Positions 2,862 through 29,467 of a DNA stretch of 64,000 nucleotides are shown here, piece by piece. Within the stretch, counting starts at the first letter, position 1. Every line of letters starts with the position of its first letter. The notes beneath the pieces were generated by a model. It saw only the letters and a program-made list of their open reading frames with translations, had not been told where the DNA came from and did not search any database. The translations under genes and the position numbers were made by a program. Where the stretch lies: the NCBI GenBank assembly GCA_947090755.1, contig CAMUPF010000004.1:1-64000 (forward strand). Direction: 5' to 3'. The stretch is from an uncultured Candidatus Melainabacteria bacterium (GTDB taxonomy: Bacteria > Cyanobacteriota > Vampirovibrionia > Gastranaerophilales > Gastranaerophilaceae).

Positions 2862-3662
2862 TTACGAGTGGTCAGCGAGCGCTGCGTCAACAGCGTTAAG
2901 CGCAGGAATTACAGTTGCACCGTAGATTAGGACAGGGAATACGTCGTTAATTCTCATTGCATCTATAGTGCACGCTCCCTTTTTGGTAGTGCCGCTGTAG
3001 TAATCGTGCCACTTCGTATCGTCATCACCACTCTCTTTCCAGTACTTCCAGTAACCTGTGTTGCTGTCATTAGCGCAGGTTATTAACATATTTGGAGGTT
3101 CAATACCGTTAACGTCGATATAAGCAAGGCAAGGCGAATCTTTTGTACAGCCTTCTTCTGCGATTTTTTTCTTGTCAGGGAAGATGTAATAGACACCTTC
3201 ACGGGTTTCAAAAATAGCACCGCCGTAGTCTTTAGATGCATCTATAGCCGCTCCGGTTGCTGTTTCGGTTGACGCTCTTGAAAGTTTTGCGTCACTATCA
3301 CTGATTGTTAATAATTTACCTGCAAACGGATGTGAAGTTTTATCAAGTTTTGTGATATCCATTGTTTTGGTTAAAAGATTTTCAACAGAAAGCTGTAATT
3401 CAACGGCCGGAGCGCCTGTACCGGTTTTATTAATAATTCTGTCTACGTCTGACATATTGTAATCAAGTTTTGTCTGTGCAATTCGCAGGGTTTGAGATAA
3501 AGTTGCATAAGCTTTTTGCAGCATTATTTTGTGAGATCTGCCGCTTGTATTCCCGAGAATCTGCGGAATCGTAAGGGCTGCAATGACCCCGATAATTGAC
3601 ATAGCAATTAGAATCTCTGCCATAGTAAATGCTGAGCGCGTCTGCCCAATATTTTTGAACAT
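2862..3662 (-). CDS. Type IV prepilin / pseudopilin-like protein
   Basis: 266 residues. The N-terminus has a short leader and a prepilin signal (AFTMAEILIAMSIIGVIAAL), with the hydrophobic helix of class III/type IV pilin signals. Here the motif is A-F-T-M-A-E, so the residue before M replaces the usual glycine and cleavage may be atypical. After residue 35 comes a long helix (RSHKIMLQKAYATLSQTLRI) and a soluble C-terminal domain with several cysteines (CTKDSPC, ITC, ACTIDAMR), probably disulfide-bonded. Unlike the two other prepilins in the window (7128-8157 and 28447-29467) it has no G tract after its start and reads straight through. It is probably a minor pilin or pseudopilin; the exact system is unknown. 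Confidence 0.85.
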   Translation of the reverse strand: MFKNIGQTRSAFTMAEILIAMSIIGVIAALTIPQILGNTSGRSHKIMLQKAYATLSQTLRIAQTKLDYNMSDVDRIINKTGTGAPAVELQLSVENLLTKTMDITKLDKTSHPFAGKLLTISDSDAKLSRASTETATGAAIDASKDYGGAIFETREGVYYIFPDKKKIAEEGCTKDSPCLAYIDVNGIEPPNMLITCANDSNTGYWKYWKESGDDDTKWHDYYSGTTKKGACTIDAMRINDVFPVLIYGATVIPALNAVDAALADHS

Positions 3663-7000: not shown

Positions 7001-7022
7001 AAAGGGGGCGAAAGCCCCCTTT
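7001..7022 (+). terminator. Terminator-like hairpin after stomatin gene
   Basis: AAAGGGGGC - gaaa - GCCCCCTTT, a GC-rich 9 bp stem with a GNRA-like tetraloop directly after the stop codon. The T tail is weak (TTACTAAT). Confidence 0.75.
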
Positions 7023-7042
7023 ACTAATAATAAACCATGCTG

Positions 7043-7127
7043 TATAATGACAATATAGAAAGTGAGTCAGGCTGAGCCTGTTCTACAATAGAACCCGAGC
7101 ACGACTTGGGAGGAAGGAAGGGTAAAT
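7043..7127 (+). promoter_or_regulatory. Promoter and three-hairpin leader of G-tract prepilin 1
   Basis: A consensus -10 box TATAAT lies at 7043-7048. The leader that follows can fold into three consecutive hairpins: CAGGC/GCCTG (7068-7072 with 7076-7080), TTCTA/TAGAA (7081-7085 with 7089-7093) and CCCGAG/CTTGGG (7094-7099 with 7105-7110, one G-U pair). The last stem abuts a very purine-rich ribosome-binding site (AGGAAGGAAGGG, 7111-7122). The leader is structured right up to the Shine-Dalgarno sequence, so translation could be controlled there; no known riboswitch class is recognised. Confidence 0.5.
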
Positions 7128-8157
7128 ATGAAAAAAGATAGCAATGTATCAACATGGACAGGGGGGGGGGGGGCGTGCCTTAACAGGCACATCTAAGCGC
7201 TTAGCGTTTACAATGGCGGAGATACTTCTGTCGTTGACAATAATCGGCGTGGTGGCTGCGATAACGCTTCCGTCGCTGACCGGAAATATTAACGAGCGCA
7301 CATGGAATACACAGAGAAAAGCTTTATATGCAAGATTCAGTCAGGCAATCGCCCTAATGCCGGCGTTGAACGGTTTTGGCACGCTTACGGAAGACGAGAA
7401 TGCTAGTGTGACGGCCGATACCGCCGCCGAAACATTTGTAACAGAAGGCCTCGGTAAAGTTCTCAAAATCAATAATATCTGTGATAGTGAACATTTAGCC
7501 GACTGTGGTGTGGTTTCATCGTTGACCACTATGGCGGGTAGTTCTTTAACAACGCCAACGACCCTTTATGAATTAAACAGCTGGTTTAAAAATGCTTCAT
7601 ATAGTGAACAATCATATTCTGCTCCGAATACAAAAGTCGCCGCATTTGAAACTCAAAATGGCGAAAGTGTTATAGTTTATTATAACGGGTTATGTCGCAC
7701 GGATTATTTAAACCAGTCAATACTTACGAGTGCTGGTGATTTATTCGGGTTTCCGGAGGCGAATATGTGTGCAAATTTTGTTTATGATTTGAACGGGAAT
7801 AAGGGTCCGAATACAATTGGTAAGGATATGGGTGTTATTACTGTTTTTAATGCTACTGATTCTAATGTTGTTTCGCCGCTGCCGGCTTCTATGTATGATG
7901 AGGGCCGATTTACCTGGTATGATTCATCACGTGCCTGTACGAACAGCAATCCGGAATCACGCTTGCCCAATATCGATGAATTATCTGCATTAATGATAAA
8001 CCGAAATTTATTTAATATTTCGACGAACTATTATTTTAACTCAAGTTCAGTTGTAGGCGGCAGTCAGAATAAAATTTGGCTTTTTGGTGCTGAATTTGGT
8101 GTGCGAGTTGGCGGTGGAAAGCAATATAATCATGTTGTTCGCTGCATAAAACGATAA
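7128..8157 (+). CDS. Prepilin-like protein 1, reading frame split by a 13-G tract
   Basis: The main body (in frame from about 7144) is a prepilin. AFTMAEILLSLTIIGVVAAI is followed by a helix (RTWNTQRKALYARFSQAIAL), repeated pilin-like blocks, and a C-terminal domain containing RLPNIDELSALM and FGVRVGGG...VVRCIKR, which resembles DUF1566/Lcl_C (C-type-lectin-like fold). The only start with a strong ribosome-binding site is the ATG at 7128 (MKKDSNVSTWT). With 13 G at 7161-7173 this start runs into TAA at 7194; with 12 G it reads straight into the prepilin. An in-frame ATG at 7144 has no ribosome-binding site. The gene therefore looks switched off, or rescued by slippage, in this sequence. It is a close paralogue of 28447-29467. 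A homopolymer sequencing error is the alternative. Confidence 0.8.
7161..7173 (+). repeat. Poly-G tract (13 G) after prepilin start codon
   Basis: Thirteen consecutive G lie 33 nt downstream of the ATG at 7128, in a genome with otherwise low GC content. Length changes of one base would move the prepilin in and out of frame, as at phase-variable contingency loci. The paralogous gene at 28447-29467 has a 12-G tract at the same relative place. Confidence 0.9.
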
Positions 8158-8163
8158 ATTTTT

Positions 8164-8194
8164 AAAATAGCCGACTCCCGCAGTCGGCTATTTT
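8164..8194 (+). terminator. Rho-independent terminator of prepilin 1
   Basis: AAAATAGCCGACT / AGTCGGCTATTTT, a 13 bp stem with loop cccgc followed by ATTTTTTT. It is located 6 nt after the prepilin stop codon. Confidence 0.9.
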
Positions 8195-8254
8195 ATTTTT
8201 TTCTATATTTGGTGTAGAATATTTACAAGAGAGTATTAGGGGAGAATGTGTAGA

Positions 8255-28446: not shown

Positions 28447-29467
28447 TTATCGTTTTACACAAAGAACTCGATGTTTATCTGTATTACCGTTTATTAGTCT
28501 AACACCTATTGTTGCATCTTGAACCCAGGCCTGAGTTGGCGAGATTTTTGTGCTGGACCAGTAATCAACGATGTCCGCTTGATCCTTTAGACCCGAGAAT
28601 TTTTTGTTGATTGCCATAGACGATAGTTCGTTTATATTTGGCAGTCTTGTTTCATTATTTTGTCGGCAAGCGGTAAGGGCTTCATCTAATGTCATTTCTT
28701 TTGCATTGTTTGCGTCTTTAAAATCTGGTATAGGAGCAACAACTATTGAATCGGTTGCGTTAAACGCTGTTAAAAAACCAATATCTTTCCCAACGGTATT
28801 TGGCCCTTTGTTGCCATTTAAGTCATATATAAAATTAGCGCACATTGTAGTTTGTGCAAATCCAAAATTTCTACCTAAATAATCAATTGTTTCTCCATTT
28901 GAATATTGTGTAATACAGCTTGGGTTGTAATAAACTATAATTGATTCACCATTTTGAGTTTCAAATGCTGCTGCTTTTGTATTCTTTGTTGAATAACTAT
29001 TTCCTCCCCAATCTGCAGAACGAAAATAATCCGCAAGTGTGTATAATGTTGTTGGTATATCTTGTTGTATTCCGCTTAAATTCGTGAATTTTTCAGTAAT
29101 ACCACAATCTTTTAAATGTTCATTGTCGCAGATATTGTTTATTTTTAGAACTTTTGATAGCCCTTCAGTGACAAAGGTTTCGGCGGCAGTGTCTGTGGTG
29201 TTGTCAAGTGTGCCGTAACCGTTGAGTGCAGGCATTAGTGCTATGGCTTGCGAGAACCGTGCATAAAGAGCTTTGCGCTGAGTATTCCAAGTTCGCTCGT
29301 TAATATTACCAGTCAACGATGGTAAAGTTATAGCTGCTACCACACCGATGATCGTGAGAGATAAGAGGATTTCTGCCATTGTAAAGGCCGCAATATTTCG
29401 ACGATACCCCCCCCCCCCGACTCATCAGGGCCTTACTACAAGGGTTTTCAGAGTTTGAATTTTTCAT
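28447..29467 (-). CDS. Prepilin-like protein 2, reading frame split by a 12-G tract
   Basis: The in-frame body (from 29379) is a prepilin starting FTMAEILLSLTIIGVVAAI, over 80 % like prepilin 1 in the first 65 residues, more divergent in the middle. Its C-terminal region includes RLPNINELSSMA, DYWSSTKISPTQAWVQDA and IGVRLINGNTDKHRVLC; W-S-S-T and GVR..NG are hallmarks of DUF1566/Lcl_C. The well-placed start is ATG at 29467, with AAGGAAGAAAGGAAAG upstream, giving MKNSNSENPCSKALMSR. With 12 G in the coding strand (29407-29418) it is out of frame; 11 or 14 G would join it to the prepilin. Promoter candidate: TTGACA with CATAAT 17 nt on, minus strand near 29490-29520. Sequencing error is the alternative. 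Confidence 0.8.
29407..29418 (-). repeat. Poly-G tract (12 G on the coding strand) after prepilin 2 start
   Basis: Twelve C on the + strand, hence 12 G on the coding strand, located 49 nt inside the start codon at 29467. Off by one from the length that restores the prepilin frame, as in prepilin 1. Confidence 0.9.

Follow-up and report, generated by a model that had tools for sequence, protein, structure and literature searches.

The run of 13 G at positions 7161 to 7173 of the window, the 64,000-nucleotide stretch of DNA analyzed here, is best explained as a slipped-strand phase-variation switch. It lies within the leader-coding segment of one type IV pilin-like gene from a repertoire of approximately 115 to 120 dispersed paralogues, and we place the probability of this reading at roughly 0.78. 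The source genome (1.78 Mb) falls in the Candidatus Gastranaerophilus group. Phase variation had been proposed for this site in an earlier note on the DNA, and that proposal is supported, since the tract, the start, and the frame logic recur in paralogues and in sister species. By this device the cell would probably switch surface fibers on and off at random. The case is built from sequence: the anatomy of the site, the size of the family, the way tract length relates to reading frame, selection that acts on the frame as well as on the protein, and a comparison with relatives.

The features of the window are collected in Table 1. The earlier note had read the switch site exactly, with a start at 7128 behind a good ribosome-binding site, 33 nt from this ATG (7128-7130) to the tract, 13 G, and a stop at 7194; the frame so defined has 22 codons and ends in TAA. 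It was equally correct that removal of one G joins 7128 to the leader. The 12-G version reads MKKDSNVSTWTGGGG-RALTGTSKRLA-FTMAEIL, a canonical prepilin, and the same start is in frame with the pilin at 9 or 15 G. A second ATG at 7144 had been overlooked; it is weak but lies in the pilin frame, and in the assembled sequence it opens an intact ORF of 337 amino acids.

Table 1. Coordinates of the switch site and of other features in the window
Feature	Position	Strand	Remark
Ribosome-binding site GGGAGGAAGGAAGGG	7108..7122	+	Shine-Dalgarno sequence ahead of ATG 7128
Start codon and opening 11 codons of prepilin leader	7128..7160	+	
G13 tract, proposed slipped-strand switch	7161..7173	+	State +1 as assembled
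Second ATG	7144..7146	+	Without good ribosome-binding site; pilin frame in 13-G state
Remaining leader RALTGTSKRLA	7174..7206	+	Cleavage after A
Mature pilin, 316 aa, stop codon included	7207..8157	+	Helix at N terminus, then middle and Lcl_C-like C-terminal domains
Promoter-like site TTTACT-17-TATAAT	7020..7048	+	10/12 matches
Terminator-like stem-loop, then T run	8163..8195	+	Directly after pilin stop
Second switch tract, 12 G	29407..29418	-	Start ATG 29467-29465
Second pilin of same family, stop codon included	28447..29385	-	Lcl_C 31.2 bits
Different prepilin, normal start	2862..3662	-	Without G tract (contrast)

In the stretch around 7020, promoter-like sites were no more frequent than expected from shuffled sequence; a box similar to the one listed was also present upstream of other pilin copies. 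Terminator-like hairpins did not exceed shuffle expectation either, the listed one being the only one found in that stretch, and the sequences 3' of the stop codon differ among pilin copies. The second tract becomes readable with 11 or 14 G and, like the first, was assembled in state +1, that is, one G beyond a readable length. No homopolymer of G or C in the window measured between 7 and 11 nt, and the only longer ones are the 13 G at 7161 and the 12 G at 29407, each ahead of a pilin of this family.

Across the whole genome, G tracts numbered 117 at a minimum length of 8 and 115 at a minimum length of 9; for the latter class, the distribution of run lengths predicts approximately 0.6. Tract lengths were mostly 13, 12, and 11, and most tracts directly precede members of one pilin family. 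A genome-wide tblastn search returned 129 matches to the pilin, about 122 of them strong; some matches are fragments split at contig ends, and the number of pilin genes was therefore set at approximately 115 to 120. Nearly all of these carry 11 to 14 G between the start with its ribosome-binding site and the prepilin cleavage site. The statistics cover the tracts with flanks of 3 kb upstream and downstream (approximately 726 kb), in addition to the genome-wide searches. Within the examined stretches a tract was present in 82 of 91 full-length copies, and most of the nine tract-less copies are truncated by contig ends. The exceptions, one copy with G6 and one with no tract, are both in frame with their own start. 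The tracts display features expected of slipped-strand phase-variable genes: an abundance beyond chance, a position in the 5' part of the coding sequence, and a length great enough for hypermutability.

Two types of 5' region were distinguished by the distance between the tract and the ATG that follows a Shine-Dalgarno sequence (SD-ATG). In type A this codon lies 27, 30, or 33 nt ahead of the tract, with few exceptions, distances that are all multiples of three; in type B it lies 46 to 52 nt ahead. Because the start-to-tract distance differs, so does the number of G needed to read through: type A requires 12 (subclass 9/12/15), whereas the subtypes of B require 10/13 or 11/14. Tract length follows the frame required by the start of each copy, which argues, at the level of sequence, that selection acts with the SD-ATG as the start. 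A change in length moves this supported start codon in or out of frame. All three frame states were found, and both length and state differ among homologous genes and among genomes (one genome per species).

Among the 76 scorable copies of the source genome, 56 were in state +1, 15 in frame, and 5 in state -1; contig ends sit at some tracts, and some of these lengths may be wrong by one. When lengths were permuted among the copies, a mean of 33 fell in state +1 and none of 20,000 permutations reached 56. With P values that are indicative only, because copies are related, state +1 also prevailed in the sister genomes CANAJP, CALUQY, and CALVBO pooled (20 of 27; P, 5e-5) and in G006 (12 of 12; P, 1.5e-4), two tests that are not fully independent in that the G006 and CANAJP records possibly represent one species. 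The in-frame share of the source genome, 15 of 76, lies below one third (P, 0.01). Its proportions of states differ from those of G002 (P, 4e-5), where 21 copies were in frame, 15 in state +1, and 10 in state -1, making the in-frame state the commonest. In genome G027 of another genus, g22, a divergent pilin carries 10 to 11 G at the same place, with 22 of 29 copies in state -1 and 6 in frame. In G004 many tracts have N between two G runs, scaffolds having been joined across them, and their lengths were unusable. Most copies as assembled are off by one base, in a direction that varies between lineages. An alternative start was ruled out as the general cause of state +1, since most out-of-frame copies have no in-frame codon like the one at 7144. 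It was also ruled out for subclass B1, in which a TGA immediately before the tract in the needed frame means that no start yields the pilin in state +1. A general preference for state +1 was ruled out across genera, as G027 prefers -1.

Seven genomes of the genus were compared, and six of them, among these the source genome, contain approximately 87 to 132 tracts and at least 110 pilin candidates each. The seventh, G005, has zero tracts and only six long pilin matches with short ordinary leaders, so that tracts and family expansion go together within the genus. This genome provides a natural contrast for dating the system. Public records JAMPIJ010000001-47 (L121, L127, and others), which are titled "Fusobacterium sp.," carry the Gastranaerophilus pilin family and are probably mislabelled.

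At the protein level, every one of 198 copies from six genomes has Ala or Gly at position -1, and in copies with no leader after the tract the last tract codon supplies the -1 glycine. Phe at +1 and Glu at +5 are invariant in 73 sequences, which together with Gly/Ala at -1 constitutes a prepilin site. Although the site itself is canonical, the window copy scored 16.1 bits with PF07963 (N_methyl), below the curated cut-off of 21.2. It reached 15.5 bits with TIGR02532 (cut-off, 16.3), and both this gene (22.5 bits) and the second window copy (31.2 bits) remained below 34.9 with PF07603 (Lcl_C). An AlphaFold2 model computed on the 73-sequence alignment (mean pLDDT 90, pTM 0.86) comprises three parts: a 47-residue N-terminal helix (residues 3 to 49, the model being less confident up to residue 30), a middle domain, and a C-terminal domain. 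The best PDB match of the modelled C-terminal domain was 8q4e (Legionella Lcl; Foldseek E, 3e-5), followed by C-type lectins. The predicted architecture joins a pilin helix to a tip that resembles Lcl and C-type lectins. A prepilin peptidase (Peptidase_A24) and T2SSE-type ATPases are encoded in the genome.

The first 40 residues are approximately 99% identical among the 91 copies of the source genome, and the C-terminal halves share only approximately 25 to 45% identity over long stretches. Where N-terminal residues are identical, codons agree in 39 to 46% of cases, with 34% expected at saturation. The paralogues are therefore old, and each has been under selection at the protein level. For the off copies, too, this selection is strong, because the N terminus is conserved and synonymous sites are near-random. 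Gene conversion was ruled out as the source of N-terminal identity, as the codons differ. A recent mobile cassette was likewise ruled out: the synonymous sites have almost reached saturation, the 3' flanks are dissimilar, and long near-identical stretches are almost absent. In the source genome the leader between tract and FTMAEIL varies from 0 to 82 residues (e.g., L036, L054, and L057). Some leaders contain recurring GC-rich, partly palindromic segments (CCGGCTGAGCCGG...) whose frame is kept open; these resemble small dispersed repeats inserted right after the tract, with few sites elsewhere.

If the tract is a slipped-strand switch, one G gained or lost at replication would move start 7128 into or out of the prepilin frame. 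At 12 G, prepilin would be made and prepilin peptidase would cut off the entire leader, glycines too, so that the mature subunit would bear no mark of the switch. With 13 G, a ribosome starting at 7128 would stop after 22 codons and product would arise only through weak initiation at 7144. Most genes would be off at any moment, and because each would switch independently, a population could display many combinations of C-type-lectin-like pilins. Tract lengths presumably change within the population, the pilin is presumably secreted and assembled into a fiber, and selection by host, phage, or mucus glycans may hold most copies off. Slippage within the leader accounts for the presence and location of the tract, for the logic of three frame states, for genes that are intact, and for the variety of states seen. 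What speaks against simple random slippage is that fewer than one third of copies are in frame and that off copies are almost all in state +1; selection against the on state combined with a lineage-specific slippage bias would suffice to produce such one-sided off states. The N_methyl and Lcl_C scores of the window copy, below their curated cut-offs, also count against the switch reading. MutS and MutL are present and apparently intact, so the tracts do not seem destabilized by a lack of mismatch repair, and its loss was ruled out as a cause.

The one-sidedness could also mean that off-by-one is not plainly "off" and that selection holds the tract one base from frame whatever its length, a notion that we regard as rather unlikely. 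If it held, it would imply either regulated low expression through slippage on the G run or a rule of keeping nearly all genes off, with pilins one slip from on and a cell that displays few fibers at once. The main rival, to which we give still less credence, is programmed slippage; slippage that sets a low level had also been raised in the earlier note. Here, state +1 would be the working setting and each pilin would be made at a steady low level, through an RNA polymerase that drops one G or a ribosome that shifts +1 in the G run. The excess of +1 over -1 whatever the absolute length (56:5 in the source genome, 12:0 in G006) is what such a device would give, and +1 copies of subclass B1 have no usable pilin start while their proteins are still conserved. 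However, a programmed device is expected to keep one state, whereas all states are common in G002 and genus g22 sits mostly at -1.

Two further readings are very improbable. One holds that true lengths are in frame and that the short-read consensus or the library adds one G. The assemblies do look like short-read metagenomes, with many contig ends at tracts and, in G004, N inside many of them. Yet in the source genome the +1 offset is found at needed lengths from 10 to 13 and 15 copies are in frame, whereas most G002 copies lack the offset and G027 shows the opposite one; the conserved relation of start, tract, and prepilin frame is independent of the exact count. The earlier note had considered a consensus error at 7161-7173, which is very unlikely because tracts occur in all three frames and length tracks need; a start at the position of 7128, whose absence from homologues it would have counted as a refutation, is present in them at the type A distances. 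The other reading, of similarly low standing, sees in the copies a silent archive for recombination similar to pilE/pilS, in which the G tract would serve for exchange or as a quadruplex signal. Where both flanks of a slot are conserved between species, different pilins occupied it in 19 of 21 pairs, N- and C-terminal segments have different nearest neighbors with uncorrelated patterns of similarity, and 5' modules match as far as the tract while the bodies differ. Against such an archive are the frame-dependent tract length, which requires translation through the tract, the count of only 5 recent-looking stretches shared within bodies, and the start and ribosome-binding site that copies have of their own, unlike the promoterless silent copies beside a single expression site in pilE/pilS. 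Judged from these patterns, old shuffling among pilin copies is likely and recent exchange appears to be rare. Slots occupied by non-orthologous pilins, such as L036/L154/L175, L055/L127/L130, and L086/L124/L194, suggest turnover of cassettes at fixed sites.

Slipped-strand phase variation is a mechanism of a known kind. The poly-G tract of pilC sits in the signal-peptide region. In Neisseria pilC1 and pilC2 the tract lies in the reading frame and the number of G sets the ON or OFF state (PMC5953494), as proposed here for the start-proximal coding region of a pilus gene; unlike pilC, an accessory or adhesin gene of one or two copies, the present genes encode pilin-like subunits, number more than 100 paralogues, and occur in another phylum. 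Contingency genes of Campylobacter and Helicobacter contain poly-G tracts, mostly of 9 to 10 G, in many unrelated families, with 81 putative loci, high for its species, in the genome of C. jejuni subsp. doylei (PMC6321876, PMC2823697). They share with our system G tracts near the 5' end of ORFs, many loci in a small genome, and surface functions, but here the tracts have 11 to 14 G and belong to essentially one family. The Opa proteins of Neisseria, encoded by up to about 12 genes with pentamer repeats in the signal peptide (PMC5953494), are likewise paralogous surface adhesins with a repeat inside each leader; the unit here is a single G, the genes are about ten times more numerous, and the predicted secretion follows the prepilin route. 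The C-terminal domain has the fold of Legionella Lcl (8q4e, PF07603; TM 0.62 on the target) at approximately 22% identity, with a type IV pilin helix instead of the collagen-like stalk. While the mechanism is established for Neisseria pilC and Campylobacter genes (PMC5953494, PMC6321876), the open-licence papers searched, those on Melainabacteria included, described neither phase variation for this lineage nor a poly-G switch in pilin subunit genes at such copy number.

If the reading is true, the family would be among the largest single phase-variable families in a bacterium, with approximately 115 to 120 genes that take up roughly 6 to 7% of a 1.8-Mb genome. It occurs in uncultured gut relatives of cyanobacteria. 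Such a family would suggest that these commensals diversify lectin-like surface fibers on the scale of mucosal pathogens and would point to strong selection by phages, immunity, or glycans of the host. For this group, ORF calls and assemblies would be systematically unreliable at tract sites.

G tracts were also observed outside the pilin family. Locus L060 (G000:C8:13310-26472) resembles a surface-polysaccharide locus, with aminotransferase-, nucleotidyltransferase-, and acetyltransferase-like genes, and has tracts of 14, 13, and 15 G at 3002, 9045, and 10156 within ORFs; one is in frame and two are out, as in ordinary contingency genes beside the pilins. On contig C1, runs of G12 (L033 at 3002) and G14 (L034 at 2995) lie near the start of ORFs of approximately 500 amino acids or more. 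A G8 run (L043 at 3002; G000:C4:80996) is in frame as assembled within a very long ORF, which we take to resemble DNA polymerase III alpha.
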